A DNA stretch of 47,415 nt. It comes from a virus. Within the stretch, counting starts at the first letter, position 1, and every line of letters starts with the position of its first letter. The stretch covers positions 1 through 47,415 of IMG/VR virus record IMGVR_UViG_3300044568_001517; one strand, written 5' to 3'. A model generated the notes under the pieces. That model did no database searches and was not told the origin of the DNA. It saw only the letters and a program-made list of their open reading frames with translations. Below, piece by piece: positions 1,094-35,464 of this stretch. The position numbers and the translations under genes were made by a program.

Positions 1094-1158
1094 TTCAGTG
1101 GTAGAACACCTGTTTTGTAAACAGGTTGTCGCGGGTTCAATTCCTGCCTGAGGCTCCA
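1084..1158 (+). tRNA. tRNA-Thr (anticodon TGT)
   Basis: A complete cloverleaf. The acceptor stem GCCTCAG pairs with CTGAGGC, the anticodon stem CCTGT/ACAGG encloses TTTGTAA, the T-loop is GGTTCAATTCC, the discriminator is T, and the terminal CCA is encoded. The first 10 nt overlap the 3' end of the HTH gene, including its TAG stop. It would read ACA. Confidence 0.95.
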
Positions 1159-1233
1159 GTGGGCGTAGTTCAACGGATAGAACCGCCGCCTTCTAAGCGG
1201 CTGATCTGGGTTCGATTCCCAGCGCCCGCACCA
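1159..1233 (+). tRNA. tRNA-Arg (anticodon TCT)
   Basis: It begins directly after the CCA of tRNA-Thr. The acceptor stem GTGGGCG pairs with CGCCCGC (one G-T wobble), the anticodon loop CTTCTAA gives TCT, the T-arm is GGTTCGATTCC, and the discriminator A is followed by an encoded CCA. It would read AGA/AGG, and Arg AGA codons are visibly frequent in the long minus-strand late genes. Confidence 0.95.
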
Positions 1234-1238
1234 CCTTC

Positions 1239-1275
1239 AAAACAAAACTCCCACCTACGCGAACATAGATGGGAG
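1239..1275 (-). terminator. Intrinsic terminator of the late operon
   Basis: Read on the minus strand, a nine-pair stem (CTCCCATCT / AGGTGGGAG, one mismatch, 10-nt loop, plus coordinates 1248-1275) is followed by the T-rich tail TTTTGTTTT (1247-1239). It lies 50 nt downstream of the last late gene (stop at 1326) and faces the end of the plus-strand tRNA unit, so the two transcription units converge here. Confidence 0.8.
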
Positions 1276-1297
1276 AAGGCTTGTCGGCCTTTTGTTT
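1276..1297 (+). terminator. Weak plus-strand terminator after the tRNAs
   Basis: AAGGC, a six-base loop, GCCTT and then TTGTTT. The five-pair stem is short, but its position just beyond tRNA-Arg and back-to-back with the late terminator makes it a plausible end of the plus-strand transcript. Confidence 0.4.
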
Positions 1298-1325
1298 CAC
1301 CCAGCAGACGACAATCCGCTAGACC

Positions 1326-2066
1326 TTAGATCGTGAGGTCGGGGTCAGGTTTGTCAATCTTGGGGAACAATCGGCGCCAAAGGGCGAACAAGGCTTGGAT
1401 CCCAGCCACCCCGATCAGGCTTAGGCTTACCCATATGAAGGCTTCGTGGTCAAACAGCCTAGGAAGGGCCGCTACGCCAGCCCCTGAGGCCATCAGGCCA
1501 ATGGCCCCCATCTTGCCTACGCCTACCCAGTGGCCAAAGATCAGGGCAAAGGCGCCTAGGGCGATCAGGCCAGCACCTAGGGCCAGCAGGTAGGTATCCT
1601 GCTTCTCCCTGTTGGCGGCCCTCAGTTCTAAGTCCTTTTTGAATAAATTTTGCTCGGCCTCCACGCGGCGGCGCTCGGAATCCTTAACCACTGTCTCCCA
1701 AGCCGCGTTGATCTCCTTGATCGTCTTGTCGGCCTCTTCCTTAACCTTAACCAGTTTGCTATGATCTCCTGCCAGCGCAAGGGCGTGATTGATGTTTTGT
1801 TGAGTGGGCTTGTCCAAGTAGGATCCAGCGGCCTCTAGGAGTACCCCGACTGTCTTAGTAGGGGGAGTCTGCTCGGCCCCCGCGTTTACATCCTTGGCCA
1901 CCTTGACATAGCCAGCCGCGCGCTCAATGGCCTTGTCTTGCTTGTCGGCAAAGGAATCGGCGGCCGCAATAGGAGCCTGAGCCACAGTAGGCTCGTCAGG
2001 CTTCTTGGTCGAGCAAGCGATCAGAGCCAGCGCGAGAGCAAGGATCGGAATCTTGTGAAGGCCCAT
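1326..2066 (-). CDS. Lipoprotein with coiled coil and C-terminal membrane segments (spanin-like candidate)
   Basis: A 246-residue protein. It begins with a signal peptide and lipobox (LIAC, Cys18). A charged helical region follows, with strong coiled-coil character at about residues 95-160 (many Lys/Glu, VKVKEEADKTIKEI). Three hydrophobic segments follow near 157-180, 186-204 and 209-230. It is the last gene of the late operon, directly after two small membrane proteins, one holin-like. An outer-membrane lipid anchor plus periplasmic coiled coil plus C-terminal membrane anchor is the plan of unimolecular spanins, although those have one transmembrane segment rather than three. Function is inferred from architecture and position only. 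Confidence 0.6.
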   Translation of the reverse strand: MGLHKIPILALALALIACSTKKPDEPTVAQAPIAAADSFADKQDKAIERAAGYVKVAKDVNAGAEQTPPTKTVGVLLEAAGSYLDKPTQQNINHALALAGDHSKLVKVKEEADKTIKEINAAWETVVKDSERRRVEAEQNLFKKDLELRAANREKQDTYLLALGAGLIALGAFALIFGHWVGVGKMGAIGLMASGAGVAALPRLFDHEAFIWVSLSLIGVAGIQALFALWRRLFPKIDKPDPDLTI

Positions 2067-2070
2067 TGGA

Positions 2071-2412
2071 TTATTTTCTGAGTTTCAGAAACAATCGTAC
2101 CCCAGATGCCAAGGCTACGATTCCTCCGATTATTAGGGTTAGTACGCATACGATTTGGAAATTGTTCACGATGCTTTCAACCCTATCGATGGGGATGCTG
2201 TCGCCTACATCCGTGACCACTGCCTTATCCGTGATCAGGGCCACGGCAGAGTTGGCGTTGGTGATAGCCTTGAACCCAGCCACGATAGTAGTCGCGCTCA
2301 ACAGGCCAGCGATGCCGATGGCGAGAAGGAAGCCGCTCTGGATAGCGATGATAGTCTCAGCGGCGCTTGCGCTTGGGCTTTGGCTTTTCTGGCTTAGGGG
2401 TTTTTTTCGCAT
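2071..2412 (-). CDS. Small membrane protein of the lysis region
   Basis: A 113-residue protein with a basic N-terminus, one hydrophobic segment at about residues 21-47, a polar middle rich in Asp/Val, and a second hydrophobic segment at about 87-109 ending in a basic tail (RLFLKLRK). It overlaps the 3' end of the upstream holin-like gene by 56 nt and ends 4 nt before the lipoprotein gene. It could be a second holin, an antiholin or a spanin partner. I recognise no family. Confidence 0.6.
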   Translation of the reverse strand: MRKKPLSQKSQSPSASAAETIIAIQSGFLLAIGIAGLLSATTIVAGFKAITNANSAVALITDKAVVTDVGDSIPIDRVESIVNNFQIVCVLTLIIGGIVALASGVRLFLKLRK

Positions 2413-2701
2413 TGTTTACTTTGGTGATAACTAGTTCTACGACCTCAGGTGAGGCCATACCAGAGAGCGACATAATCAAAGCCTTGTACAGGCCAGACAT
2501 CTCTACTCCGTGCAAAGCGAAGTAAACGATCACGCCGATGATTCCAGCCGCCGAGATCTTCCTAGCCCATATGATGGCAGGAGATGTCTGGTCAGTGATC
2601 AGCATACGCGCGAGCATACCCGCTCCTCCAAGCAGTGATACGATCCAGCCCCCGCGTTTAAAATCCTCGGCGGCGGCGCCGAAATCTGGGCTAGTGTTCA
2701 T
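2357..2701 (-). CDS. Holin-like protein
   Basis: A 114-residue protein with hydrophobic segments near residues 19-35 (WIVSLLGGAGMLARMLI), 48-66 and 71-92, and a strongly basic C-terminal tail (KPEKPKPKRKRR). The order matches class I holins of the LydA/HP1 type: RK-rich loop, glycine-rich membrane helix, 'LSGMASPE' segment. Such holins permeabilise the inner membrane at lysis. It follows the giant virion gene with a 4-nt overlap and precedes the other membrane genes, forming a lysis cassette without an adjacent endolysin. Confidence 0.65.
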   Translation of the reverse strand: MNTSPDFGAAAEDFKRGGWIVSLLGGAGMLARMLITDQTSPAIIWARKISAAGIIGVIVYFALHGVEMSGLYKALIMSLSGMASPEVVELVITKVNNAKKTPKPEKPKPKRKRR

Positions 2702-5700
2702 TTAGATGGGGTAGGGTCTGGGCCAAAGTGTTTCTTGAACCACTCCGCGTTCTTCTTAGGAACTTGGATCGGGATCAGGTCGTCAGGTGCGTGTAAGGCC
2801 ATCGCTTTAATCCAACTTTCTTGCTGTGTCCTTGTCATCATCGCACCCTGATCGTGCGTTAACTGAGGTTGATTCCAACCATAGGAGCCATCGACCTTAT
2901 ACAGATGCGGGATCTCTAATGAGCCAGATATGCCATCGGTCTGTAGTCTCTTGTACTGAGCAACGAGGTCTCTGATCTCAGGAGTATCAAAAGATTTCCA
3001 GACCTCGGCGGCTTTGCCTTCTGTAGCCTTGTATGATATATGTATACTATTTTGTGCGTCCAGATCGTAGGATCCCCTTCCATCCCAGCGGCTGTCTTGC
3101 TTGTGCATCTGGGCGTCAGTCATCAGCGCCCAGAAGAGTCTGCGCGAAGGAACAAATATAACTGTGTTTTCAGAACGCTTAGGGGCGTACAGTTTCAGAG
3201 CCTCCTTCTCACCTTCCTTGGTGCCTTTCATTCTGGCTTTGCGGTTAGCCTCTAGCACCGCGTTGATCCGCGCTTGCTCTGCTTGCTGGGCAACGAAGCC
3301 TTCCCCTTCGGCGATCTTCTTCCGCGCTTCCATAAACTGACCAATGGCGCCTTCGGTTCCCATCTGAATGGTGCCTTCGTTGTCTCTGACATTCTCCCTT
3401 GTTCGAACGCTCTGTAGCGCTCTGGCCACTGCGTCTAGTCCGCTGGATGTGAATGTAGCCGTCTCAGTAGTCCCTTGGTTCCTGCGCTGGTAGGTGGTTG
3501 TCTCCGTAGTAAGGCTTCGCGGCCTGATCAAGAACGCCGCCTTCACCGCGTCATCAAGCAGTGTGCGCTTCTTGTTTTCTGGGGCCGCGCTGTAGTTTTC
3601 CAAAGCCGCCTTGCGAGGATCGACTTCGCCTCTCAGCATCTTGTCTTTCCAATTGGTCTTAGAAGAAAACACCTGAGCATACAGACGGACAGACGCGAGC
3701 AACTGTTGGAACGCATTCAGAGACTTGCTCCACAGGCTGTTGAGTTCTGTCGCGTACTGCTTGCCTTCGCCTTCGCCATTCTTCTCAAGGTGCTGAAGGA
3801 TATCATCGAGCGGAGACTTCTCCATCGGCGGGAGATCCGTAAGGTAAACCTGAGTCTGCGGAGACTTAAGGATCCCAGCCACATACTCAACAATGGTGAC
3901 AAAGTTATAATCCTTTGCCCAAGCGCTACCTTTGGGATCGCTGTAGGTACGCGGGTTTTCAATAGCGTATTTGTAGCCAGCACCACCTACATCGGGCAAT
4001 GGGTTGGTAGTACTCATACCATACGGCAATTTTGTCCTAGGTGTTCCATCGGCACGGAATCTTTTAGGATCTACTTCGAAAGCAATGTCAGCGGCAGAAG
4101 GCTCTCTTCCAAGTTTCTTACGCGCGGATCTGACATAGATGCTATCGCGCATTGATGCCATATCGCGAGCCTGTGTGCCTTCAAGGATCCGCAACCAAGA
4201 CTCCACAATGGTGTGGAACGCCGCTTGTCTAATAATGTCGCGTGTCAGTTCCTGTGATGTGTCGGCAGGTAGATCGACATTGTTCATCGACCTGTACAAC
4301 TTACTAGACTTCGTGTGTTGCTCCTTCATAAACGCAAGCCGCTCGGCCATAGCGTTTCTCATTGCCGCAACATACGAAGGCGCATCCTTGTACAGGGCGA
4401 TCTTCGGAATAGGACTGAGACCTTCCTCCGTGGCCTCTCCTTCGGTCATATTGAACCTTCTCTTTGTTCTGGATCCAGCCGCCTGTCTTCTGGAATCCAT
4501 CAGAGAGGGGGGATTTAAAAGCACATCCCAACTCCTATGTTCGCCCGCGTCTCTATGCATCATAGAGCCATACAACATATGATTCCACTCTTCGATCACT
4601 GTGCTAAAATCTGGGCTGGTTGACTGCCATCTATCTCCCATAACCATCAGGTTAGTCTCGGCGTCAGCCGCCGCGTTCGATCTTTCGTTGCGTACATCGA
4701 GCGTGATCTGATTGCTTAACAACTCCCTTCCTAGGTTGTCGGCTCCTTTTTCGTAAGTGGTGCTAGAGTAAGCATCCATAAACAGGAACATATCTAGAGC
4801 GTTCTGTTCCCTTGGGGTCATCTTCTCCCACTTAAGATTGCCGTGCGCCAGTTGCCTTGTGACAAGATCTCTAAAATCTGCCTGTGAAATGGATTTGGAA
4901 TCCGCATTTACATCGTGGGCCATCTGCCAGACGAAGACCAAATCTTCCAGTGTACCTCCGTTCTGGCCCCAGTAAGCCCACCAATCAGCAGACTGACCTT
5001 GCTTAATCGCGCCGCTTTTAAAGACAGAATAGTACATCGAGGACGCCATATATGGGTTCTCTTTGTACTTAGCCCCTACGCCCATATCAGACCCAGCCGC
5101 CATAGACTCCGCAGATCCGTAGCCTGAAGGGCTGAAGTCAGGCTTCACATCATTGCCAGCATAGAATCGGTTGATGTCCCTGACGACCTTGTTCGGATCC
5201 GTTCCCTCTGGGTAGGACAGGCCAGCCTCGCGCTCCCATCCGTTCTCATCAGGTCTGGTTGTGTCGCGCAGATCTAACTGGATAGATCTCTTGTCGTTGG
5301 AGTCTCTGATGAGATCCTTAATCATCGATAACTGGCTAGAGGTAGGCTTTAGGCCGATGTCTAGGAGCGTGTGGTCTCTTGCCTGAGACATACGGATAGC
5401 GCCAGTGGCTTGCATAGCCTTCACCATATTGTACCTGCTGGCTTCGTGCGCGCCTACAGGAGCATTGATACCATCGGGAAGAATTACCTCGCGGTGATCG
5501 GTGTAGCGCTGGCCGACAAAGTCATCACGGCCGTTGCGGCCACTAGGAACATAGTAATCACCTTCTCGTTTAAACCCAGAAGCATCCCTGCGGCCAGACA
5601 AGTCCAGCATAGATCCGTTAGGTAGCAGGTAGCCACCTTCGTAAGGGTCGCGAGTCAGGCCAAACTTTTCGATATTAACCTTAAGAATGCGATCAACAAA

Positions 5701-8700
5701 ACTGTCCTCAGGGTGGCCAGAGGGACTGTACTTGCGCTTGGGGTTGATCTGCCACGCGGGAAGCCACTCCTTGGTAACATACTTTCCATTGACTGAATCG
5801 CCTTCGGTAAAGGCAGTCATCGATCCTTTGGAGTACATATCGCCTACGGAAGCGCGCGTATCCAGAGTTGGGATCATACCTTGTGCGTCCTGCTTGGCGG
5901 CCGCGATAGTGGGATTCTCTCCCATCACTTCAGCAAGAAGTTCTTGAGCCTTCCCGATCCTTCTTCCTCTGATAACCCCATCTTCGTTTGATGCGAAATC
6001 CTCAGTAACAAAACTATCCTTGGCCGCAGTGCTGTAGTCAAAGGACACCTGATTGAATCCAGCGTACTTAAGGCGCTCGACAATCTCAGATAGGAAACCT
6101 TTCAATAGTTTATTGTCTGCGGCAGGTTCGTTCATCGCTCCCTCGACCTGTCGTCTTGGGCCGCCTCTCATCGAGATGATGTCGTTGCCAATCGGCTTTG
6201 CCCTGCGGCGGGTAGGATCATCAAACTTAAAGAACTTAAGTTCAGCCTTACCAGAGACATCCCTGCCAGAGGCGCTTTCAGAAGTGCGGACAATAATTCC
6301 AAACACTTCCTTACCAGCGGCGTCAGTTAAGGACACTCTAGATCCCTTGAACCTGCCTTGGGTATCCCTGACGGCCTTCCTGTTCTGGGTGGCGTACAGG
6401 CCAGAAGTATTAAAGTCGAATCCACCAAGCGACTCGCGCGCTCTATCGCTGAACAGGCCGCCGTTCTTTAGGTTGGCCGTGTCGGAGGGGAATGCCTGAT
6501 CAAATCGAATGAAAGAAGGGCTATATTTTCTAGATCTATCGATTCGGTAGATATCAACTGGGCCATTCTTTGTGGTAAGCGGGGAAGGAAGTGGGTTCTT
6601 GGATCCAGCAAAGACAATGCGAAGACCATCGTGTTCATCGACAGTGGTCAGGCGATCAGCCTCGGCGGCATCAACATCGTATTCGTTTTCGTGCAACTTG
6701 GTCATCGTGTCCACGAACTTGTCGGTCATCTTACGATGATCAGCCGCAGTCATACCCTGCTTCGGGATCCATAGTTGCGTGACTCCAGCCATCTTCAGGC
6801 GTTCTACGATCTCAGCAAGGGCGCCGATGATAGGCTCAATAGTAATGTGATCTGCCTTCTTACGCATCTGAAGGACAGCCATCTGCCTAGCCTCGTTAGG
6901 TCTGCCCTCAGGCGCCTCGCGGTTCTGCATCAGGTAGAACTCGGCCGCAGACTCGCCCCTGTAACCATTATCAATAAGCGTGATAAAGGACATCGGGTTA
7001 TCCTTTGGGTTCATACCATTGGCACCCATCGGGGCGTCATCCATACCTTCTCTAAGTTCAGCGTCCTTTACCTGTTCGAAGTCCAGCGAGTAGTTACCAG
7101 CAAGCGCGCGCGCGGCGGTCTTGCTCCAGAACTGATCTCCGCTCTTGACGCCAGTCTCGTCAAAGAGGCGTTCAAACGGAACGAAGGAAGGCGAGTACTT
7201 TGTCTTAGGATCAATATTCCAGCCGTCCTCATCGGCTTCCCAGCCTTCTTGGCTAAGTTCAGGATCCTTGCCGAACGCATCCTTGATTGCCGCGTGGATA
7301 TTCTGAGCATCAAAGGAGTCGTAGAACATACTCTTTGTTCCAGTGTGTCTAAGGCGCTCAAGTGTTTCTCTGACTACGGAAGTCTTAAGATCAGGGTGGC
7401 CAGCCAGTTCATCGACAACGATCTGTCTTCCAGCGGATCGTCCTGCCGCGAACCTTAGGATGCCCCTTGAGTCAGTCTCTTCCTTATACCACTTGCTCTC
7501 ACGCCTTGAAGCAATTCCTTCAGGCGTCTCGGCAACGAAGGCTTGGCTGACAGTAACTTCCTTGTTGGGATTGGAAGCGGAGATCTGGAACGACATAACA
7601 ATGTTACCTGTTTCCGAGTTCTTTGCCTCGACTCTAATATTGCCAGCAGAGTCGGCTTCGTATGAGACGATCGCGTTCCTAGGCAGGTTGTGTTCGGCGT
7701 AATCGCTGAACAAGTTGCCTCTTCCCTTAGATGCGCTGTCGTTAAACGCGCGCTCAAATGTGATGTTAGACGGAGAGAACAAGCGCGTGGGATCGACATA
7801 TGTCGTAATGTTCGCTGACGCTCTTTCTCCTGTGTTGATAGCAATAGCCGTGGCTGAATCGCGCGTGTCAGTGTTATTTGAATCGTGCATCTGGTGCCGC
7901 GTGTTTCCTTCGCCGTAAGTATTTCTTCGGTTCTTAAACACGGCGCCTGTCTTGTCTACGATGTAAGAATCCAGCCCGCGCGTCCCTTCCCCAAGAAGGC
8001 CAGCCGCTTTAAACCTAGCGCCTACCTCTGAGTTAACAGCGTCACCAGCACCCTGAACCTCATACGCAAGATCATACATATTCTTTAGCGTCTGCGGAAT
8101 GTTAAGGTGAGAGGCTAACGCAGGGTATGTAGATCTAACGAGACCCTTTCGCAGTTCTTCAATGCGATGATATTGGTCTTTGATATCTCTTAGTTCTTTC
8201 ACTTCCAGACCACTAGGTTCCCACGCAAGACCTTGCTTAGACAGTTCCGACTGTCTATCGATATACTTGTTCCTGAGCGCATCAAATTTGCTTGTGAGCC
8301 AATCCCTAGTGTAGGCAAATTCTGAAATATTTCTATTATAAGGCTGTGATCTGAATGTTGCGTATGCCTGATTGATTTCAGCCATCAGCGCAGGATCATT
8401 AAGGATCCCATCCAATGCCTTAACAGTATTATAGGTAGTGCCATCCATCGCGTGGGTGCCACCAATGTGGCCAACATCAAATGGCGTTCTATTAGGAGCA
8501 TCCTTTGGCTGAGTTACTAAGTTGGCAGGGCCAGCCACAGGGCTAGATAGGTACAGTTGCTGATCGGTAACATCGTTCGCACTAACCTGTCCGTGTGTGT
8601 CTGAGATCCTGTATGCGTGTCTTCCTGTTGAGGAAGATGTACTTGGCGCAGTGGCTACGATAGCGACATCAAAGTTTCTGGAGTAGTATGTTCCCCACGG

Positions 8701-11700
8701 CTTGTTTTGATGATATTCAACATTATCAAATCCGCTTGAAGTAAAATTAAGGCTGATCTCCGCGTCCATAGGAGTAGTAGACAGTCTTTGAATCAGAGCA
8801 TTAAGGCGGTTAACAAACTTAGCCGTTCTATGTGAGAAGGGCAAAGGAGGACTCATCCCGCTTCTTCTTGCTTTCGGGAAAGCCTCTTCGATTGTTTTGC
8901 TATTCCAAGCGTGGAACTCAACAGTGGGGCTGTCGTCAGGTCTGTACTTGAAGATGTTCGATGAGTCTGGGTAGACTCCGATGTTGACGAGCGCGGCGCT
9001 ATCGTTGGCCTTGATTGGGTTCGTAGCCTCGTTGACCTTGAACTTCTCACCATTGATCTCGATGGTTCGCTCGCCGCCCTGTGCGGCAACCTCTCCAGTA
9101 AGGCGGCCCCTCAGAATAGACTCAGCGGCCTTCTTCCCGACAACCTTGATAGGCTTTCTGTCGAAGGCGCCGATGATCTCAAAGATGTTGGTAAGTTTGC
9201 CGTCAGCCGCGCGCTTCTGGGTGATCTGGAAGTTCTTGTCTCCCCACACCACGCCGCCTTCGGACTGGATGATCGGGGTGGCCATCTTTTCCTTGATCCA
9301 CTTGGTGGCCTGTTCGGCCGTAAGGGCTACATTCCCCTTGGTACTGGCCTGACCCTGTCCTGATGCATCGACTCCCAGAGTCTCCGTTGCCCTTCCTCCA
9401 ACTCCGCGCTCGGTGCCAGTTGGAGACCAAGTCGTCCGATTATTCTCGAAGACTGTGGTGTCTCCTGTGAATAGGTCTCCTGTTCGTTCGTTCTCTGCGG
9501 CAAGGGCTGTTTCTCTTTCGAGTCCATTCTTGTACCGCTGAAGTTTGACGGCGAGGCTGACATCTCTGCCGATCTCGGCGCTGTTGAAGGTGTCGAAGGA
9601 GCCACGCGGGACTGTCTCGGAACTGAGGTGGAAGGCATTGAGTCGTAGTTGGGTTCCATAAACTGTAGGGTTCTGAGTGATTAGATCGGCAAGGCCAGTC
9701 TGCCACGCATCCATATACCAGCGGGCGCCTTCCTCGGAAAGAAGATCCTTACTCCCAGTCTGGATCTCCGAGATCTTGCTGAACTCTTTGTAGCGCGCGG
9801 TGATCTCAGGTGTGCAAGCGGCTTGGACGCCGATGTACTTGGTAAGGCCATCGATCTTCTTTTGGATCTCTTTAGCGCCCTTGCTGTTCGGATCCATCTT
9901 GGACATCTCATTGGAGAGTCTGGAGATCTCGGCGGCGTTGGGGTTGCGCGGATCAGGGATCAATGTGAACCCATCGATAAGCGGGTTCTTCTCGGAAAGG
10001 TGTTTCGCGACAAGCATTGCGTCTGCTTGAGACACAGAACCGCCAAACATAACATCGCCAGCAGGTCTAGCGTTGGGATGGTTCGATCCGACAAGTTCGG
10101 CAACGAAGACATCCTTCTGGGAATAGTTCTTAGCCTGAGTGACAAGGTAATCGGCCAGCAAACCAAGTTGATTTTGGACTGTAGGATTAACGCGCTCGGC
10201 CAATTCGTTGGCCTCAGCATTTTCCAAGGCTAACTGGGCCTTCTTCAGATCCTTAGTCTTCGCATTAATCTTCTTCTGCAACTCATCGCGAACTGGGATG
10301 TCAACGGACGCCGACATCTGTTCCGTGTATTGGCGCAGGAGCCTTGCTTCGTTGCTAACCTTTGTCAGTGCATTGCCGCGCGCGTTGGCCAAGATCGTAC
10401 CCTTACCCCTGTGCGCGATCACATCGAACATCAGGGAGTGTTCCGCTCTTCCACCAGAGACGCCAATAGTCTGACCGATGTTCGCGCCTCTAAGGGCATT
10501 GCCTAAAGCGTCTGCGACAAAGCCACTGACCTGTTCGATCTTTTCCTTGGGGAAGGCAAACCTTCTGCCAGATCCTGCCGCGCTCATAGGTACGCCCTTG
10601 ATCTGCGTCAGGCCAACCGCATCGTAAGATCCAGCGAAGCCAGCAACGATTCTGCGGATGTTCTGGTAGTCGTTGATCTTAAAAGGATCGCGAGCGCCAG
10701 AGAACTCAGCCATCGGGCCTTCGAAGGAAGACATCTCCGCGCCGATAGTCTTTGTCCATCCGTTCCTATCCCAGACCCCCTTTTCGTGGAACCAGATCAA
10801 AGCCTGAAGGTCATCGGGCATCATATCCGCAAACTCGCCGCCGCGTTCACGGAGTCGAGCCGCCGCTTTTTCAAAGACAGTCTGGCCAAAGAAGAAGTCG
10901 CCGCCGCCTTCCCACTGTGGGAACTCAGCAGTTCCGTGGTTATGCCACTGGTAGTCTACGCCACCCTCCATAGATGCATTAAGGCGCCAGATCCCTCTCT
11001 TCTTGATCTTAGTGCTGATAATTCTGTGAAGCGTTCTGGCCGCCCACACATCGATGGTGGCCGCGCGCGTTGTGCCAGCAAGGTTGCCAGCAAAATTAGG
11101 AGTCTTCGGCCCTTCGGTAAGTTCGTGCCACAGGTTGTACATAACCTGACCGACCTTAACAGTGTTGGCGTTGTACTTCTTCCCGCTCTTACGGAGCATC
11201 AAGTTGGCCTTGTCTCTAAAGATCCTGCTCTTGGCCGCGTTAAGCCCTTCGGACAACTGGGTAGGAGTCAGTCGGTTACGCGGGGTTGCGTCCAGTTCTT
11301 TAAGTGCTTCAACGAAGTCCTTTACCACCTGCTCAGGGATCGCGTCTTCGCCGTCTAGATTTTTGAAATTAACGATGTCATCCCATTCGTATTCTGTCTT
11401 GTTAATCTCGTTTGCCCTGTTGGCCGCTTCCTTTGCGCGAAGCAGGTCAACCGCTTCGGCCTCAAACTCAGAGACTCCGTTGGAATCTTTGCGGCCAGCC
11501 TTTTCGTGGACTAAGCGAAGTTGATCGTGGATGCGGGTGAGAACCTCGTTGTACTTGCCCTGAGAGAACATCGCCAAAGCCTCTTCCGCTTGCTTGAAGT
11601 TTTCCTTAACTGGGGTTCTGGCCGATGTGGCGCCCTGACCTTCGGCGAACATACCATAGACAGATCCGTAGATGGAGTATCCATCGCGCACCATATTCCT

Positions 11701-14700
11701 GTACCAGCCAAGACCCTTCTTCTTGTCGGGATCCTTAACCGCCTCAAGCGCCTCTTCGACAAGACGCATAGCAACCTCTTCCGCGTGTGCGTTGACGGCA
11801 GGATCGCCCATTCGGTAGTGGTCGGATCCAACAAGCATTTCCATCAAGCCATAGCCAACCTTCTGGAACTTAAGAGTTCTGCGGGTGTCGCCGACCTTGG
11901 CATAGCCGCGCTTAACTTCTAAGTCGTCTGCGGTATACTTGATCTCTTTTCCGTCAGCATCTTTCATTGCTTCTGTCTTGGGAGTTCCGTCCCTATTCAT
12001 AGCAAGTCTGGCAGGAAGCAGTTCTTCATTGTCTCTCTGCATCATTTCAATTGCCGCTAGATGCCCTTCGAACAAACGAAGTTGCGGATGCTTTTCTGCC
12101 CTGAGGTTATCCATCAGGAGTTTATTGTGCATCTTAGTCGCGGCAATGATGGCCTCGGAACTATTTGCGTATGCGTTGTTAGCAACGATCTTGAACTTCT
12201 TAGTCGTGTCTACGAGCAGGTAGTTCCCATCAACCACTGCGACAACGATGCCCTTGTCACCACCCATAAGGTTTGCGCCTAGTTGATTCTGTCCGATCAG
12301 TTGGCGGCGCTGGCTGTCGAGACCAATGAAGTCTTTAGCCTGTTCAATTGTCGAGAACGAGTAAGGCTTATCAAAGTCATTTGCGGCCACGAAGAATCTC
12401 TTGTCCTTCTCTATGATCGTGTACTTGGCTGTAACTGTCTTTGAGATGCCGTCCTTCTTGCCGATCTTCTCATAAGCGTAAGCCGCATTGATCATAGTGA
12501 CTTTCTTGCCGTCCTGCTCGATCACTTTAGGAGCGCCGAAGGAAGGAGGCGAATAGTTGCCAGCGGCCTTTGGATAGAAGTTGGGTTCGTTCAGGCGCCA
12601 GTTCCCAGTGGTAACCGACAAATCCTGCATCAGATCTAATCTAAATGTAGTGAACGCAAAGTCAGGCCCGCGCTCCCAAGCGTGGAAGGGCTTAATGATT
12701 GGGTTGTTGTAGAGGAGCGCTTCTCCGTTAGGGCCAAATCCACCCTTCGGAATGGCGCCCATAATTCTAAACATAATGTCTCTAATGGCGGCGCCTTGCT
12801 CGCCTCCACCAAAGAGTTCTGCGCTGGGCAAGCCTCCATCAGAAAGGTTCTCAGAATAGCGCCTAAGGTGGTGAACCATAACATCCATCGACCCCCCAAA
12901 CAGATCTGCCACATTGACTACGGCGCCGCTAGGAAGGGTATAGGTATTGTTGAACTCATCTGCTCCGCGCTTCAGGATCACGCCTAGGTCGATGCCTGTG
13001 ACCATAATCTCAAAGTGAGGAGTAACAAGATTACCATTCCGATCCTTGCTGGTCATCACGAACTCCATCTTGTACGGAACGATCTCCCTGAATGTGGGAA
13101 GCACCTGATGCTTGGGCTTACGAAGTTGTGCTACAGACCCATCGTCCGCGTAGTATTCGTGCGTAAGCGCGTTGTAGATAAACTGGATCTGACCGCCGCC
13201 GAAACCCTGTCCGCTAATGGCGTTGATTGTATCTCTTAGTACGGAAAGGTTGATGACCTCCTTGGGGAGCAACATCCCACTGTTTTTAAGCGCAGTAAGG
13301 CCAGCATCCGTAAGGACACCGATCCCGCGCTTGTTGCCGTGCTTGTCCTCAGAAATGACGATGCCAGTAACCTTCGGGCCTTGAGCCTCAAGGAGGCCAA
13401 GCATCATCCCGCCGCGCGCGGCTCTCTCCTGCTCTACTAACTCTGGGGACTTAAGTTTGCCGTTAGCGTCCTGCCAATGTTCAAGGCCAGCCCTGCGAAG
13501 CACGGCGCCAAGTTCATTTGCTGGGATAGAAGAAAGATCTAAAGCACTGCCAGCGCCCTTATTGGCCAAGCGCTTCATAAGATCGTCCATAGCCCTTTCG
13601 GCGACAGGATTGATCAGGAACTTTCCATCCTTAGTCTTAAAGATTTCACCGATTGAAGTCTTGCTCACTGCCTTATCGAGGGCGATCTTGTCTGCTCTCA
13701 GTCGTTCAGCCTTTTGTGCGAGCGCTTCCCAGAGAGGCTTGTTGAGGAACTTGGCGACAGTGCCATCGGAATTCCGCACGACAAGTTTCTCCATCGCGCC
13801 CATAGTGCGGCTAAAGTCAGACCCAACTTTCTGTAGTCTCGTAATTAAATCCTTAGTCTCTTTGCTGGATCTGATCGCGTTGACATCTCTGATGCGAAGG
13901 GCGATGCCCTGTCCGTTCAAGTCTTTCTGGGTCTGGAAATCAATGAAGTCCTCAAGTTGGTTAGTGAGCCGTCTGAGTCCATTTCCATTGCCGCCCCTAA
14001 ACAAGAAATCGGATCTGTGCCTCTGAAGGTATGATTCAAAGTAGAATGCGCCGAACTCTTCCGCGTAAAGGTTTAGCAAGTCCTTAGCGCTCTTTACCTG
14101 ATCGGGAGTCGCTTGCTTGTTGTTGATGGTGTCGTAGGCCGTCCTAAGGTCATCAGTGGCAACCTTTGCTCCGTTAGGATCATCGCGGTGTAGCGTATCA
14201 ATATACAACTGTCCGAACTCACGAAGTAGGCTTGGGTCAGCGGCTCCCTGCTGTGCGACAAGAACGCCGTTTTCATCGCCGATGCCGAACATACTATTCC
14301 TGAAATATGAGATAGCCTGTTCCCTCGCGATCAGGTGATTGACCGCGTGGAAGACTTCGTGGCCACCCACTGTGTTAGCCGCCATACCACTGCTTCCAAG
14401 AAGACCAGCCCTGTCGGCGTTGATGTAAATTATCCCATTGCCAGCACCACCTTCGTGGAACACGCCGTTGTAAGCGTTCTGTCTGGTATTGATTCTAGAT
14501 CTTTGCTCCTTGGTTCCGTTCAGTTTGATATCACTAAGCCACTTATTGATCTCAATCGACAGTTCAGCATTTTTCTCGCCAGCGATACGGCGCGTGTCTG
14601 CGGCAAGATCTCTTGTGGCGTCCGATGATGCTTCTGCGATGGCCTGTTGATGTAGGCGTTCAACCTCTGCCTTAAGTTCTCTCACTCTGTACTGTCTGCC

Positions 14701-17349
14701 GCCGATGTTAAAATCAGTATCAAGAACGGCATCGAGCCTCAAAATATTTCCGTTAATATGAGCCGTGTCGCCTTCCCTGTGGAAAATGATCTTGGTGTTG
14801 ATGCCGTTCGCCATTTTGACGGCGCCAACAAGCAGGGGGATTCGGCTCCAGTCTCTGTCAAATTCAGCACCCTTGATAAGGTCTTCTACGATCTGTTCGC
14901 TGACTGTACCCTTTGCCATCTTGCGGGCATCTACAGTTGCTCCAGTATGCGTCCAGACTCCAGATCGGTACTGTGCGAAAGAAGCAATGCCAGCAGATGC
15001 TCCACCAATACCTGCGCCACCCCAGATGCCGTGGACGCCGCCACGATGGCCGTCCTGCATAAACCCAAGGCCATATCCTACGCCAGCGCCGTGCCACGAA
15101 CCCTTAACAAAATCATAGAATGGAGCAGACATCGGCCCCATCACATTGGCGGCAACCTTTGACATCATTCGCGTGGCGCCAGTCAGGGATGTGTCTACGG
15201 CCATAGACTCCAATGTACTTACAAGTCCAGTACCAGTTCTTGCGGCTCCTCTGTAGCCGTACTTTTCAAGCATCCCGCCTACCTCTGCGGCACCTTTCCC
15301 GAAACCCCACATCGCCGCCAACTTAGTGCTTACTCCATATCCTAAAAATGCATCTGTAATGCCAACTGTACGCATCACATACTTAAAGGTGGCGGGGTTA
15401 TAGACCATTCCCAATTTCGGCGCCATAACCTCAGCCAACTTAGAGAGTCCCTGACCAGCCATACCAAAGGCGCCAACCATAACTTTGCCACCCTTGCCGA
15501 CCACCCATCCAGTTACCTTGGTGGCGGCGCCAAGCGTAGCACCCTCAAATGTTTGAAGGTAAGTCCCATAGGTGGCCAGTCTTGTGTTGATCGCATCCTT
15601 AGTCGCAATCCTGATGACTCCGTTCTTAGCGCTCCATTCGGCACCACGGCCGACAGCACCAAGCAATCCCATACCTTCGATCTGGCCAGCCTTAGTGATC
15701 GCAGAAGCGCGGCCTACGAGGCCAGCGGGGTTGATCCGCATCATACCTACATTGGTCAACTCCGCATTGAATGCGCCGTACTTGTACAGGGCCGCTTGCA
15801 TTTCTTCAGTCGTGTAACCAGAAACCATAGCGCCAGCGCGCGCAATAATGTGGGATTTCTCCCCCCGTCCAATTTTTTCAACCTCATCTTGATTCATCAT
15901 CCCTGCGTCAAAATTCGCAACAAGGACTTTGGGATCCGCTAGACTAGGATCTCCATTGATCATACTCCACCAGTCTTTAAATTTGCCGCTTTTAAGATGC
16001 CCCCAAGTGCTTGTCGGATCTAGGACTGGGCCAAACACTTGACGACCAAGCATCTCAGCGCCGCTGACGCCCGCGTCTACGACCCCTACACCAGTAAAGT
16101 TGACTCCCTTTGCAGTAACATCCTTGAGCGCATTAACTGTAATATTATCTCCGTTATCAAACATTCCGTGGCCCCACGCGCGAGTCATCCATTCCGCAGG
16201 ATTGATCTTACCCTGAAGTCCCGCTCTGTTGGCATACATTTCATACGCCTTTTTTTCATCAGCGGTCAACTCTACGAGTTTCTGTTTCTTAGGATTAACA
16301 GTTTTAAAGTTCGGATCAACGAGGGATGAATTATAAAGTCTCTCCTGCCAACTGATTCCTTCGTCTAGACCTTCTAGATCAAAATCAGTGATTCTGAGTG
16401 GCCCCATATCCGTACCAGCGCGGAGCAAGGCGTATGAGTCCCCCTTTGCTTGTCTTACTCTTCTTTCAACAGACGGAACCTCTTCCTTGAGGGCCATCAT
16501 AAAGTCAGCCATTTCAATCCTATTTAATGACGCCAGAATTGCTTGGAATTCAGGGTCTGTTTTCATCCCAGTTTTAGTCAAAAGGTCTGGGGTCTTTTTG
16601 ACCTTTTCGATAAGACCATCTACGACTTCTTTTCTGTAAGCCTTCGGGTTTGCTTTAAATTCTTTGAGCGTTGCCCAGAAAAGTTTAGTGTCAGCAATGC
16701 GCTGTTTGTCGTTCTGCGCCATTCTTTCATCAGAAGATGTAGCCCCGCCATCCCAAGCGCCAAGAATCTGACCGATCGATGGATACCTGCCGATCTTCTT
16801 AGACTTAATGTAACCCCAACCAGCGTGGCCAAGATCCTCATACCAACTAGTTGATTCTCCGTAAGTGTTTCTAATTTGCTCTACGGCCTTGTGGTCTTTA
16901 AGCCCAAGGCGCATCATACCTAACTTGTCGTCATCGTTAAGTGTTCTCCAAGTGCTTCTATCCTTGGCGATCATTGCCCAATTATTCCTAGCGACCATAT
17001 CCTTCTCTGTATCGGTTAGTTCCCTGTGGCCAGCGATAGGGCCGCGCTTTTCAATGCGATCCTTTGATTCAGCAAGAACCCTGTCGTAATGCTCATCGAC
17101 CACGCGCTTGATAGCCGCGTCATCTGGCGTCAACTGATCCTTGGAAGGGGTGGCGCCACCAGTTACTAGGAATCGGCGAGCATCTGCTTCGTTCTTTTCC
17201 TCTTCTTCCTTGGTAATGGTAGGGGCGCCAAGAGGGGCGCTAGGATCTGGAGCGGCGGCTTCAGCGGCCTTCTTGGCTTCTTCCTCAGGCGTAGAAGCCC
17301 TAAGTCTAAGATCGGCCTCTCCGCTACCTCTAAAATTTAGATCAGCCAT
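2698..17349 (-). CDS. Giant internal virion / ejection polyvalent protein (4,883 aa)
   Basis: One uninterrupted frame of 14.65 kb, about 32% of the genome. Features in order: an acidic Ala/Glu-rich N-terminus; a glycine-rich, weakly hydrophobic zone at about residues 535-795 that could contact membranes; a zinc-peptidase motif HEVFH at 997-1001 with a candidate third ligand near EEFGAFYFE (about 1093-1102); a GPKT...ATIDVWAAR segment at about 2080-2110; a DDLQALIWFHEKG segment at about 2175-2190; a coiled coil at about 2353-2385; then [FY]SPS-linked repeat domains at 3191, 3385, 3609, 3874 and 4072. In gene order it holds the place of T7 gp16, the last internal core protein, ejected with DNA. 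Multi-enzyme 'large polyvalent proteins' are known in phages and are thought to be delivered into the host. The individual domain functions are inference. Confidence 0.85.
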   Translation of the reverse strand: MADLNFRGSGEADLRLRASTPEEEAKKAAEAAAPDPSAPLGAPTITKEEEEKNEADARRFLVTGGATPSKDQLTPDDAAIKRVVDEHYDRVLAESKDRIEKRGPIAGHRELTDTEKDMVARNNWAMIAKDRSTWRTLNDDDKLGMMRLGLKDHKAVEQIRNTYGESTSWYEDLGHAGWGYIKSKKIGRYPSIGQILGAWDGGATSSDERMAQNDKQRIADTKLFWATLKEFKANPKAYRKEVVDGLIEKVKKTPDLLTKTGMKTDPEFQAILASLNRIEMADFMMALKEEVPSVERRVRQAKGDSYALLRAGTDMGPLRITDFDLEGLDEGISWQERLYNSSLVDPNFKTVNPKKQKLVELTADEKKAYEMYANRAGLQGKINPAEWMTRAWGHGMFDNGDNITVNALKDVTAKGVNFTGVGVVDAGVSGAEMLGRQVFGPVLDPTSTWGHLKSGKFKDWWSMINGDPSLADPKVLVANFDAGMMNQDEVEKIGRGEKSHIIARAGAMVSGYTTEEMQAALYKYGAFNAELTNVGMMRINPAGLVGRASAITKAGQIEGMGLLGAVGRGAEWSAKNGVIRIATKDAINTRLATYGTYLQTFEGATLGAATKVTGWVVGKGGKVMVGAFGMAGQGLSKLAEVMAPKLGMVYNPATFKYVMRTVGITDAFLGYGVSTKLAAMWGFGKGAAEVGGMLEKYGYRGAARTGTGLVSTLESMAVDTSLTGATRMMSKVAANVMGPMSAPFYDFVKGSWHGAGVGYGLGFMQDGHRGGVHGIWGGAGIGGASAGIASFAQYRSGVWTHTGATVDARKMAKGTVSEQIVEDLIKGAEFDRDWSRIPLLVGAVKMANGINTKIIFHREGDTAHINGNILRLDAVLDTDFNIGGRQYRVRELKAEVERLHQQAIAEASSDATRDLAADTRRIAGEKNAELSIEINKWLSDIKLNGTKEQRSRINTRQNAYNGVFHEGGAGNGIIYINADRAGLLGSSGMAANTVGGHEVFHAVNHLIAREQAISYFRNSMFGIGDENGVLVAQQGAADPSLLREFGQLYIDTLHRDDPNGAKVATDDLRTAYDTINNKQATPDQVKSAKDLLNLYAEEFGAFYFESYLQRHRSDFLFRGGNGNGLRRLTNQLEDFIDFQTQKDLNGQGIALRIRDVNAIRSSKETKDLITRLQKVGSDFSRTMGAMEKLVVRNSDGTVAKFLNKPLWEALAQKAERLRADKIALDKAVSKTSIGEIFKTKDGKFLINPVAERAMDDLMKRLANKGAGSALDLSSIPANELGAVLRRAGLEHWQDANGKLKSPELVEQERAARGGMMLGLLEAQGPKVTGIVISEDKHGNKRGIGVLTDAGLTALKNSGMLLPKEVINLSVLRDTINAISGQGFGGGQIQFIYNALTHEYYADDGSVAQLRKPKHQVLPTFREIVPYKMEFVMTSKDRNGNLVTPHFEIMVTGIDLGVILKRGADEFNNTYTLPSGAVVNVADLFGGSMDVMVHHLRRYSENLSDGGLPSAELFGGGEQGAAIRDIMFRIMGAIPKGGFGPNGEALLYNNPIIKPFHAWERGPDFAFTTFRLDLMQDLSVTTGNWRLNEPNFYPKAAGNYSPPSFGAPKVIEQDGKKVTMINAAYAYEKIGKKDGISKTVTAKYTIIEKDKRFFVAANDFDKPYSFSTIEQAKDFIGLDSQRRQLIGQNQLGANLMGGDKGIVVAVVDGNYLLVDTTKKFKIVANNAYANSSEAIIAATKMHNKLLMDNLRAEKHPQLRLFEGHLAAIEMMQRDNEELLPARLAMNRDGTPKTEAMKDADGKEIKYTADDLEVKRGYAKVGDTRRTLKFQKVGYGLMEMLVGSDHYRMGDPAVNAHAEEVAMRLVEEALEAVKDPDKKKGLGWYRNMVRDGYSIYGSVYGMFAEGQGATSARTPVKENFKQAEEALAMFSQGKYNEVLTRIHDQLRLVHEKAGRKDSNGVSEFEAEAVDLLRAKEAANRANEINKTEYEWDDIVNFKNLDGEDAIPEQVVKDFVEALKELDATPRNRLTPTQLSEGLNAAKSRIFRDKANLMLRKSGKKYNANTVKVGQVMYNLWHELTEGPKTPNFAGNLAGTTRAATIDVWAARTLHRIISTKIKKRGIWRLNASMEGGVDYQWHNHGTAEFPQWEGGGDFFFGQTVFEKAAARLRERGGEFADMMPDDLQALIWFHEKGVWDRNGWTKTIGAEMSSFEGPMAEFSGARDPFKINDYQNIRRIVAGFAGSYDAVGLTQIKGVPMSAAGSGRRFAFPKEKIEQVSGFVADALGNALRGANIGQTIGVSGGRAEHSLMFDVIAHRGKGTILANARGNALTKVSNEARLLRQYTEQMSASVDIPVRDELQKKINAKTKDLKKAQLALENAEANELAERVNPTVQNQLGLLADYLVTQAKNYSQKDVFVAELVGSNHPNARPAGDVMFGGSVSQADAMLVAKHLSEKNPLIDGFTLIPDPRNPNAAEISRLSNEMSKMDPNSKGAKEIQKKIDGLTKYIGVQAACTPEITARYKEFSKISEIQTGSKDLLSEEGARWYMDAWQTGLADLITQNPTVYGTQLRLNAFHLSSETVPRGSFDTFNSAEIGRDVSLAVKLQRYKNGLERETALAAENERTGDLFTGDTTVFENNRTTWSPTGTERGVGGRATETLGVDASGQGQASTKGNVALTAEQATKWIKEKMATPIIQSEGGVVWGDKNFQITQKRAADGKLTNIFEIIGAFDRKPIKVVGKKAAESILRGRLTGEVAAQGGERTIEINGEKFKVNEATNPIKANDSAALVNIGVYPDSSNIFKYRPDDSPTVEFHAWNSKTIEEAFPKARRSGMSPPLPFSHRTAKFVNRLNALIQRLSTTPMDAEISLNFTSSGFDNVEYHQNKPWGTYYSRNFDVAIVATAPSTSSSTGRHAYRISDTHGQVSANDVTDQQLYLSSPVAGPANLVTQPKDAPNRTPFDVGHIGGTHAMDGTTYNTVKALDGILNDPALMAEINQAYATFRSQPYNRNISEFAYTRDWLTSKFDALRNKYIDRQSELSKQGLAWEPSGLEVKELRDIKDQYHRIEELRKGLVRSTYPALASHLNIPQTLKNMYDLAYEVQGAGDAVNSEVGARFKAAGLLGEGTRGLDSYIVDKTGAVFKNRRNTYGEGNTRHQMHDSNNTDTRDSATAIAINTGERASANITTYVDPTRLFSPSNITFERAFNDSASKGRGNLFSDYAEHNLPRNAIVSYEADSAGNIRVEAKNSETGNIVMSFQISASNPNKEVTVSQAFVAETPEGIASRRESKWYKEETDSRGILRFAAGRSAGRQIVVDELAGHPDLKTSVVRETLERLRHTGTKSMFYDSFDAQNIHAAIKDAFGKDPELSQEGWEADEDGWNIDPKTKYSPSFVPFERLFDETGVKSGDQFWSKTAARALAGNYSLDFEQVKDAELREGMDDAPMGANGMNPKDNPMSFITLIDNGYRGESAAEFYLMQNREAPEGRPNEARQMAVLQMRKKADHITIEPIIGALAEIVERLKMAGVTQLWIPKQGMTAADHRKMTDKFVDTMTKLHENEYDVDAAEADRLTTVDEHDGLRIVFAGSKNPLPSPLTTKNGPVDIYRIDRSRKYSPSFIRFDQAFPSDTANLKNGGLFSDRARESLGGFDFNTSGLYATQNRKAVRDTQGRFKGSRVSLTDAAGKEVFGIIVRTSESASGRDVSGKAELKFFKFDDPTRRRAKPIGNDIISMRGGPRRQVEGAMNEPAADNKLLKGFLSEIVERLKYAGFNQVSFDYSTAAKDSFVTEDFASNEDGVIRGRRIGKAQELLAEVMGENPTIAAAKQDAQGMIPTLDTRASVGDMYSKGSMTAFTEGDSVNGKYVTKEWLPAWQINPKRKYSPSGHPEDSFVDRILKVNIEKFGLTRDPYEGGYLLPNGSMLDLSGRRDASGFKREGDYYVPSGRNGRDDFVGQRYTDHREVILPDGINAPVGAHEASRYNMVKAMQATGAIRMSQARDHTLLDIGLKPTSSQLSMIKDLIRDSNDKRSIQLDLRDTTRPDENGWEREAGLSYPEGTDPNKVVRDINRFYAGNDVKPDFSPSGYGSAESMAAGSDMGVGAKYKENPYMASSMYYSVFKSGAIKQGQSADWWAYWGQNGGTLEDLVFVWQMAHDVNADSKSISQADFRDLVTRQLAHGNLKWEKMTPREQNALDMFLFMDAYSSTTYEKGADNLGRELLSNQITLDVRNERSNAAADAETNLMVMGDRWQSTSPDFSTVIEEWNHMLYGSMMHRDAGEHRSWDVLLNPPSLMDSRRQAAGSRTKRRFNMTEGEATEEGLSPIPKIALYKDAPSYVAAMRNAMAERLAFMKEQHTKSSKLYRSMNNVDLPADTSQELTRDIIRQAAFHTIVESWLRILEGTQARDMASMRDSIYVRSARKKLGREPSAADIAFEVDPKRFRADGTPRTKLPYGMSTTNPLPDVGGAGYKYAIENPRTYSDPKGSAWAKDYNFVTIVEYVAGILKSPQTQVYLTDLPPMEKSPLDDILQHLEKNGEGEGKQYATELNSLWSKSLNAFQQLLASVRLYAQVFSSKTNWKDKMLRGEVDPRKAALENYSAAPENKKRTLLDDAVKAAFLIRPRSLTTETTTYQRRNQGTTETATFTSSGLDAVARALQSVRTRENVRDNEGTIQMGTEGAIGQFMEARKKIAEGEGFVAQQAEQARINAVLEANRKARMKGTKEGEKEALKLYAPKRSENTVIFVPSRRLFWALMTDAQMHKQDSRWDGRGSYDLDAQNSIHISYKATEGKAAEVWKSFDTPEIRDLVAQYKRLQTDGISGSLEIPHLYKVDGSYGWNQPQLTHDQGAMMTRTQQESWIKAMALHAPDDLIPIQVPKKNAEWFKKHFGPDPTPSK
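5731..7779 (-). repeat. Three diverged tandem domains in the giant protein
   Basis: These are residues 3191-3873 of the giant protein. Three blocks each open with [FY]SPS[NF]-[IV]-x-F-[ED]-[RQ]-[AL]-F (at 3191, 3385 and 3609). Each closes with a helix of the type E-x-x-E-R-L-[KR]-x-x-G (ETLERLRHTG, EIVERLKMAG, EIVERLKYAG) followed by a hydrophobic strand. Block lengths are 194, 224 and 265 residues. Further YSPSG and FSPSG linkers at 3874 and 4072 start different domains. The blocks are too diverged to be a recent duplication. Confidence 0.7.
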
Positions 17350-19733
17350 TAGTGTGTGTATCTTCGGAGGATCTGGTTGATCTGTTCTGGATCAAGACCA
17401 GAATTATTTAGCACCGCGCTCAGTTCATCGAGTTTTTTTCTGTAGTAAAGAGGGCCAGCGGAAGGGCCGTTCTCTTTCTTTCTATTGACTAGGGCCATCG
17501 ACATTTCCGCTCGCAAATCATACCAGTCATTATTGTAAGATCGGCCATCTGTCTTTGCGGCAGTAATTGTGTTCCACCAGTTCGACAGATCCGATCCGTA
17601 ATATCTTCCTCCATCAATTCTAGTTGCCGCGCCAGAAGAGACTTCAAGGTATCCGCTGTCAGTGCCAGTAGCAGGGATAGATGAAAGGGTGTTCCTCATA
17701 GAGGCTGTGATATCACCCATCTGCTGGGCGGCACGGCTAACGAAGTCGCTGGTTGCCACAGTTCCCCTTGAGAGAACGGCTTGTGCTAAGATCTTAATGG
17801 CGCTTTCTTCTTTGAGGTTAAAGTTTTCAGGGAATTGAGCGCCAATATCAGGAGCCAAAGTTCGAAGGTAATCCCAGTCTGTCTTGGACAGGACGCCAAG
17901 ACCCTTGGCCTTAATTCGAATAAATGAAGCAACGGCCGTAGAGAATTGCTGTTTCTCAGCGTTGCTCATATCACCGAATGAGCGCAAGACAGCAACGCGG
18001 CGGCCATCTGTGCCTCTTTCATCTTCAGTGATCGTAGGGCCAAGCGCTGGATTTGCCGCCCTTTCTTCTGGTGTAGTCGGACGAGTGACCTGCTTGAATT
18101 CCACGCCAGATCCGTCAGCGGTCTTCTTCTTAAGCAAATTCGTGATCTGCCCAAGGGAGAACATCAGGTCGTTATTCGTCCTGATGTCTTCCTTAACTTT
18201 TAATGACTCTGGCTCGCTCAATTGCATCTGTCCTTTGACGAACAAAGAGTGCCTACCATCGTTCATATCGTGGACGACCTTGATCGGCGCCAACCCATCA
18301 ATGGTAGATATCCCGAATGTCTGAGCGCTAATCTTGATCGCTCTAGCGGCGGTATTGGCAACCCACTTGTGGTAGTTCTCGGCGGCTTCGCCTGTCAAGT
18401 TACTGCCATCTGGCTTGTTCTTAAGCCACTCGACAAAGTTAGCATCTGGCTCTCTGGTGAGCGCACCTGTGGTCTTGTCCACAGTGATCTTGTAGCCATC
18501 AGATGTTGTCTCTCCGTCATAATAAGCCATTTCGTAAACCCAGCGCTTTGCCTCTGGAGTGACAGGGAGATCCTGCGCCCGCATATTTGTTTCCCAAGCG
18601 TTGGCCGCTACGAACGCATTTACATCCTTAGCGTTTCTAGCCGCAATGTGGGTAGGCTCGTACTTAAGAACAGCAGGGGCGCCTGTCTTCTTCGATTCGA
18701 CTTCCGCATCGCTAAGAGCAGATGAGAGTTCTTTCTTTTCGAGTTGGAGCGCTCTGATCTCTTCCTTGATCGGAGTAGGAAGTAATTCGGGTGCGCCGCG
18801 TTTCTCGGTAAGGTCTCTGACCCTAGCCTCAATGTCCACAAGCCGCTCTCTTGCCTTAACAGGGTCAGCCATCAAAGTCTTGGCGGCAAGGGTTTCCTGA
18901 TCTGCTCCAGTTACTGCTACTGATGCCTGTGCAAGCGCTTGGGCAAATTTCTCAGTAATAAAAGCATCTTCGCTATTAAGTTTGTCCAGCCTTTCAGTGT
19001 CGGCAGGAGCCGTTGCGGCAATTTGCGCTTGGATGTTTTGTTTCGCGGTTTGAAAAGCGCTTACAAAGTTAGCATCCATACCGACCTGACCGCCTTCATA
19101 CACCTTGACTGCGGGTGGCAGATTGCGTGATCCAGAAAGAACATCAGCGCTTCTGATGCCTCTAGTGGCGTCCATATCCTTCTTGATAGCCAATCTCGCG
19201 TTGGATTCTCTTACTGCCTGTTCTCTAGCCCATCGGTCACCAGCCACTCCAGCGGTACCGATCTTAGACTGCTCCTCCTTAAAATCTTCGGCAAACTTAC
19301 TCAGCATCGTAATGCGGCCGAGCGACACTGTCTTCTGCGTAAGGCTCTTATCCGTCCATCCGCTGATGTCCTTTGTGAGTGTGTCCTTGGCATCAATGAT
19401 TGCGCGATAAGCCAAGGCGGCTGGATCTGTCGTATTAGCATCTGCCGCCTTTCCTTTAACATCATCTGGAGTAGACTTAATCTTGGCGTCTAGGTAGGCA
19501 TTAATGTCTCCCGCCTTTGCGAAAGAAGCCTTAGCGGTTCCGTCAGCAACTTCGTGCTTCTGTTGGTTCTCCTTGTACGCGGCAATGGCGCCACCAATGC
19601 CTTCACCAATGGCTTTACCTGTGCCTTGGATGTTAGCGCCTACCTGAGCGTAAGCCTGTAGGAAGCCGTCAGGGATAGTGCTTACGCGCTGTCCTTCGTA
19701 CTGCTTAGAGAAAGGTCTAGATCCTTCGGCCAT
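17349..19733 (-). CDS. Internal virion protein (T7 gp15-position)
   Basis: A 794-residue soluble, mostly helical, Ala/Lys/Glu-rich protein with no cysteine-rich or transmembrane region. The N-terminus has a short glycine-rich stretch (GKAIGEGIGGAIAAYKE, about residues 37-53) before long helical segments. It has one of the few clear Shine-Dalgarno sequences here (GGAG about 8-9 nt before ATG). Its stop overlaps the start of the giant gene. Position and composition match podoviral inner core/ejection proteins, which line the DNA channel and are delivered with DNA. I recognise no catalytic motif. Confidence 0.6.
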   Translation of the reverse strand: MAEGSRPFSKQYEGQRVSTIPDGFLQAYAQVGANIQGTGKAIGEGIGGAIAAYKENQQKHEVADGTAKASFAKAGDINAYLDAKIKSTPDDVKGKAADANTTDPAALAYRAIIDAKDTLTKDISGWTDKSLTQKTVSLGRITMLSKFAEDFKEEQSKIGTAGVAGDRWAREQAVRESNARLAIKKDMDATRGIRSADVLSGSRNLPPAVKVYEGGQVGMDANFVSAFQTAKQNIQAQIAATAPADTERLDKLNSEDAFITEKFAQALAQASVAVTGADQETLAAKTLMADPVKARERLVDIEARVRDLTEKRGAPELLPTPIKEEIRALQLEKKELSSALSDAEVESKKTGAPAVLKYEPTHIAARNAKDVNAFVAANAWETNMRAQDLPVTPEAKRWVYEMAYYDGETTSDGYKITVDKTTGALTREPDANFVEWLKNKPDGSNLTGEAAENYHKWVANTAARAIKISAQTFGISTIDGLAPIKVVHDMNDGRHSLFVKGQMQLSEPESLKVKEDIRTNNDLMFSLGQITNLLKKKTADGSGVEFKQVTRPTTPEERAANPALGPTITEDERGTDGRRVAVLRSFGDMSNAEKQQFSTAVASFIRIKAKGLGVLSKTDWDYLRTLAPDIGAQFPENFNLKEESAIKILAQAVLSRGTVATSDFVSRAAQQMGDITASMRNTLSSIPATGTDSGYLEVSSGAATRIDGGRYYGSDLSNWWNTITAAKTDGRSYNNDWYDLRAEMSMALVNRKKENGPSAGPLYYRKKLDELSAVLNNSGLDPEQINQILRRYTH

Positions 19734-35436: not shown

Positions 35437-35464
35437 AACAATAAGGCCCACCTTGCGGCGGGCC
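35437..35464 (-). terminator. Intrinsic terminator after gene 35494-36546
   Basis: On the minus strand an 8-bp stem (GGCCCGCC / GGTGGGCC, one G-T pair) with a GCAA tetraloop is followed by TTATTGTT. It is 30 nt past the stop codon at 35494 and separates early transcripts from the late region. Confidence 0.8.

Follow-up and report, generated by a model that had tools for sequence, protein, structure and literature searches.

The question raised by this locus is what kind of protein could occupy nearly a third of a phage genome. The window, i.e. the whole stretch of 47,415 nucleotides that was analysed, carries on its minus strand an open reading frame (2698-17349) which starts with ATG and encodes 4,883 residues with no internal stop. 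It takes 14,652 of the 47,415 nucleotides of the record (30.9%), and the remaining five frames of the same interval contain 94 to 386 stops. A sequence-only reading had described one uninterrupted frame of this size, and that description stands. It is likely that the product is a phage-type polyvalent protein and at the same time the third and largest ejection protein of this podovirus. Phage polyvalent and ejection proteins are already known as a kind; what is new here is the extreme size, the use of the DUF7178 domain as common core of a large class of nearly cysteine-free giants and, probably, a fold-level relation of that domain to the HhH-GPD glycosylases.

Integrity and relatives of the giant frame

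The homologous frame is intact on independent contigs in four relatives (4,888, 4,626, 4,413, and 4,096 codons), and two further homologues are broken by contig ends, one being cut at 3,459 codons and the other split into 2,520 and 821. Between the window gene and the 4,888-codon homologue, the differences at codon positions 1, 2, and 3 number 1,145, 840, and 2,444, respectively. The excess at position 3 recurs in each 500-codon block, which argues that the whole length evolves as one protein. Judged by these substitutions, selection acts on the protein sequence along the entire gene. The frame does not look like an artefact of one assembly. A chimeric genome was also considered and was rejected because synteny with the relatives extends to the right-hand 13 kb, on the far side of the genome.

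Distant relatives of 1,984, 2,049, and 3,381 aa show which parts of the giant are old. Cultured phages gave no tblastn match to aa 1-2450, and the scan of bacterial genomes with the core of the giant found no relative, so no host is named. Scans of the whole giant against Pfam, PHROG, and NCBIfam returned only DUF7178 with its PHROG counterpart, or nothing. Likewise, profile searches of PDB sequences, run with alignments of the zincin, core, modules, N-terminus, and companion proteins, yielded no convincing match.

Genomic context

The record is a podovirus-like genome. Terminase (including the large terminase gene), portal-position, scaffold, major capsid, and tail genes lie upstream on the same strand; the capsid protein is of the SU10 type and has only distant relatives in cultured phages, with about 24-27% identity among the matches listed. 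Three directly consecutive genes come after them. The first (19737-20849, minus strand) encodes a cysteine-free protein of 370 aa in the position of T7 gp14 and N4 gp52, its role being assigned from position only. The second (17349-19733, minus strand) encodes a cysteine-free protein of 794 aa, conserved in the relatives, in the position of T7 gp15 and N4 gp51, and its stop overlaps the ATG of the giant by one base. The giant is the last of this internal-virion series, in the gp16-like position that the sequence-only reading had given it. The published description of polyvalent proteins has them injected, frequently bearing a zincin, and encoded near virion genes (Iyer et al., 2017; PMC5512222); similarly, the giant stands beside the late genes, on the same strand, after the tail and internal protein genes.

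Other features of the record lie outside this series. The record ends (1-1199 and 46208-47415) are direct repeats of 86.8% identity, which include a tRNA-Thr and the start of a tRNA-Arg and are possibly an end redundancy assembled from two strains; the tRNA-Thr (tgt) and tRNA-Arg (tct) genes are found at 1084-1233. An island of high G+C at 35000-40000 reaches 0.62-0.67, compared with about 0.52 for the structural half, and contains short repeats (36546-36608/39561-39622 and 37713-37760/38893-38941); several relatives have a high value there too. Immediately past the giant (1326-2701) come small genes for hydrophobic and lipoprotein-like products, perhaps lysis genes.

Likeness to the ejection proteins of T7 and N4

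T7 gp16 is like the giant in order and position and is itself cysteine-free, but it has only 1,318 aa and shows no detectable sequence relation to it. N4 gp50, the virion RNA polymerase of the Schitoviridae, is likewise giant, cysteine-free, and the third of three ejection genes. It contains a zincin (PMC5512222). It is an ejected virion protein, which is packaged in the particle, passes through the tail in threaded form, and comes to lie partly within the membrane and partly within the cytoplasm (PMC12633501). The giant has no detectable sequence relation to N4 gp50 either. The best blastp E-values against the two proteins are 0.2-0.6 (0.4 or worse for gp16), short of homology, and the match to the series T7 gp14-gp15-gp16 and N4 gp52-gp51-gp50 is one of position, size order, and composition. 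An N4-type virion RNA polymerase would share the position, composition, and giant size, yet this identity is highly improbable: the giant lacks similarity to N4 gp50 (blastp E no better than 0.2) and matches no RNA polymerase family, the single-subunit type included, in Pfam or PHROG.

Cysteine depletion

The giant contains 1 cysteine in 4,883 residues, a composition like that of the N4 and T7 ejected proteins and in line with its earlier description as ejection-type. Taken together, the three putative ejection proteins have 1 cysteine in 6,047 residues, whereas the other genes counted have 57 in 6,364 (binomial P ~1e-22); against the other virion proteins (0.54% cysteine), P is ~1e-12.6. Positive controls behave in the same way, with no cysteine in the 4,294 residues of N4 gp50, gp51, and gp52 or in the 2,065 of T7 gp15 and gp16, and 0.3-2.2% in most of the other virion proteins listed for the two phages. 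There are exceptions, as the N4 capsid protein also lacks cysteine and T7 gp14 has one; hence, the sign counts only for long chains. Each of ten giant homologues has 0-2 cysteines.

Position and cysteine depletion suggest that the giant most likely travels in the virus particle and enters the cell with the DNA. That it is a structural or tail component which remains in the particle is quite unlikely. Its place among virion genes would fit such a role, but it is the last of the series and lacks cysteine almost totally, as proven ejected proteins do; the giant also has a domain in common with polyvalent proteins that carry enzymes of intracellular type.

N-terminal segment and zincin motif

All coordinates within the giant refer to the minus strand. 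The stretch at about aa 500-900 is rich in glycine and alanine (15% and 13%, respectively, over aa 501-1000) and contains, ahead of the zincin, a glycine-zipper-like segment (aa 750-783; 15001-15102) with glycines invariant in 7 of 7 close homologues. This segment is a candidate for membrane insertion.

The region aa 850-1420 (13090-14802), defined by an alignment of seven sequences, putatively contains a zincin-like metallopeptidase, and its Pfam matches to zinc peptidases are weak only. The motif itself is well conserved. HEVFH (aa 997-1001; 14347-14361) is represented by one HExxH in each of the 10 homologues, and AEEFG (aa 1096-1100; 14050-14064), whose glutamate is invariant in the 7 close homologues, is a candidate for the third zinc ligand downstream. 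The apparent metallopeptidase of the sequence-only reading is thereby borne out as a conserved motif.

Conserved core and exchangeable modules

In the seven closer homologues the conservation extends to about aa 2,860, save where contig ends cut the sequence. The core comprises DUF7178 (aa 1876-2215; 10705-11724) and a remaining part (aa 2216-2860; 8770-10704) conserved in those homologues that reach the region. Beyond it, the modules d1 (aa 3192-3384; 7198-7776), d2 (aa 3386-3608; 6526-7194), and d3 (aa 3610-3873; 5731-6522) form a tandem homologous family (HMM E 1e-59, 1e-67, and 8e-59, respectively; d1 against d2 by hhalign, prob 97%), the third copy being found only in the window and in G002. 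The module d4 (aa 3878-4072; 5134-5718) is unrelated to d1-d3 and occurs only in the window, G002, and G005. The last part, aa 4080-4883 (2701-5112), has no Pfam family up to E 0.1 and is variable; among the five sequences compared, it is 61% identical to its two nearest homologues and 28% and 16% to the others. In G012, extra sequence is placed between the zincin and DUF7178 instead of C-terminally. The C-terminal half thus differs between relatives and, as far as such comparisons tell, its modules are exchangeable. This architecture of a conserved core and a variable C-terminus, together with the DUF7178 domain, goes beyond the sequence-only reading, which saw neither.

The LPD, ART, and GNAT domains for which that reading had proposed a search fared less well. 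Pfam detects no InPase, RNAP, LPD, or ART domain in the window protein. Assignment of d1-d3 to GNAT was not adopted, the weak hint being confined to one homologue (E 0.003-0.005) and only one member reaching E 0.003. Separately, a 3,381-aa relative without cysteine (L044:1187-11329) has extra segments that resemble ART and GNAT by eye, unconfirmed by Pfam.

KYSPS linkers join the tandem modules, and with the conserved HExxH they would fit a polyprotein that is cut by its own zincin before packaging, so that the virion and the cell would receive fragments only. Zincin processing has been proposed for polyvalent proteins, with phage P1 DdrB as the precedent (PMC5512222). This reading is nonetheless unlikely, as the N4 giant, although it contains a zincin, goes into the particle unprocessed (PMC5512222), and the cysteine depletion spans the whole chain, as would be expected if the entire protein had to travel through the tail.

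DUF7178 and its kinship with polyvalent proteins

DUF7178 (Pfam PF23802) matches the giant with 29.7 bits against a cut-off of 27 when scanned as a segment, and it is matched in 10 of 10 giant homologues. No DUF7178 protein encountered in this analysis is larger than the window protein and its 4,888-codon relative. Scans of viral contigs found more than 80 DUF7178 loci. Those frames of at least 1,000 aa (n = 66) contain 0.031% cysteine as against 0.525% in neighbouring ORFs, and 45 of the 66 lack cysteine altogether; hence, DUF7178 marks a class of giant, nearly cysteine-free, presumably ejected proteins. Phage C75C1 (L047) carries two cysteine-free giants near virion genes, of 2,769 aa (38751-39484 and 1-7576) and 1,343 aa (8707-12738), neither of which matches DUF7178.

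Among 398 genomes of one bacterial phylum, the sole DUF7178 match lies in a 3,606-codon frame that also carries InPase, LPD38, and ART-PolyVal, which are domain names from the published polyvalent set (PMC5512222). The suggested kinship with polyvalent proteins is therefore upheld through DUF7178. The giant resembles the polyvalent proteins of Iyer et al. (2017; PMC5512222) in being a very large multi-domain chain (often over 2,000 aa in that class; here 4,883 aa with the zincin motif, DUF7178, and tandem modules) beside virion genes, but differs from the catalogued members in that no LPD, ART, or InPase is detected and in its podovirus ejection position.

A possible glycosylase fold

The AF2 model of DUF7178 from the G013 homologue (pLDDT 85) gave 23 PDB fold matches by Foldseek, about one third of them HhH-GPD glycosylases. 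The best two are chains of the Methanocaldococcus jannaschii 8-oxoguanine glycosylase/lyase (prob 0.77 and 0.60; E 0.63 and 0.79), and further matches include Clostridium acetobutylicum Ogg, EndoIII-3, and MutY. None of the Foldseek E-values is significant, the best being 0.63. An AF2 model of aa 1780-2870 from 10 sequences was poor (pLDDT 61.5; Foldseek matches mostly to coiled coils) and was set aside.

DUF7178 has an invariant lysine and aspartate, candidates for the catalytic aspartate of HhH-GPD glycosylases such as the archaeal 8-oxoguanine glycosylase/lyase and EndoIII and for the lysine of their bifunctional members. Lys2082 in GPKTPNF (11092-11112) and Asp2100 in TIDVW (11044-11058) are each invariant in 72 of 72 sequences, and their by-eye counterparts are EndoIII Lys120 and Asp138. 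The spacing of 18 in the window and nine homologues is that of K120/D138 in E. coli Nth; elsewhere in the 72-sequence alignment it is 23-38, mostly 23-28. There is, however, no significant sequence similarity to these enzymes. The HhH-GPD profile PF00730 fails to match the window or eight relatives even at E 10, and hhalign against Nth and MutY profiles gives a probability of ~1% or less, with a register that changed between profile versions; hence, the by-eye K-T-x-N...D match is only a lead.

Solo DUF7178 genes are found in Gordonia and Tunturiibacter phages (L211:1387-2016, L212:1387-2010, and L213:7902-8498). Depositors annotated the members in two Gordonia phages as glycosylase or N-glycosylase, and the one in Tunturi_3 adjoins an annotated DNA ligase. 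A helical domain that binds DNA or is structural, with neither glycosylase relation nor activity, is a rather unlikely reading of DUF7178. The lack of a significant sequence or Foldseek E-value to HhH-GPD proteins speaks for such a domain, while the top fold matches, the invariant lysine and aspartate, the depositor labels, and the neighbouring ligase speak against it. On the strength of the predicted fold, an HhH-GPD relation is probable. Searches of open papers did not reveal this relation, and the word 'glycosylase' is absent from the main text of PMC5512222.

Proposed course of infection and implications

For everything after translation, i.e. packaging, ejection, membrane role, and enzymatic activities, we infer the following course. 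The giant would be packed in the head together with the 794-aa and 370-aa proteins and threaded unfolded through the tail. Its glycine-rich N-terminal part may help to form the inner-membrane end of the ejection channel, and the C-terminal parts would be left in the cytoplasm. There, host proteins may be cut, or the chain itself processed, by the zincin domain; the predicted HhH-GPD DNA-glycosylase-like DUF7178 may act on DNA of the host or of the incoming phage, and the exchangeable modules at the C-terminus may act on host targets.

As a tentative proposal, many phages could inject a base-excision-type glycosylase within a giant cysteine-free protein, which would repair or process the incoming genome or attack host DNA in the first moments of infection. 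If this is true, the window protein would be among the largest carriers of such an injected enzyme, and base excision would be a role unmentioned in the published polyvalent repertoire.

The proposal that polyvalent proteins are injected toolkits came from sequence, and few of these proteins have been put to the test. The near-total absence of cysteine across the 66 DUF7178 giants offers a simple genome-level sign of ejected proteins. Members of the lineage described here range from about 2,000 aa, the core, to about 4,880 aa, where modules have been added. Because this size series is so clear and one domain is common to every member, direct tests can now be made of delivery, of processing, and of what DUF7178 does.
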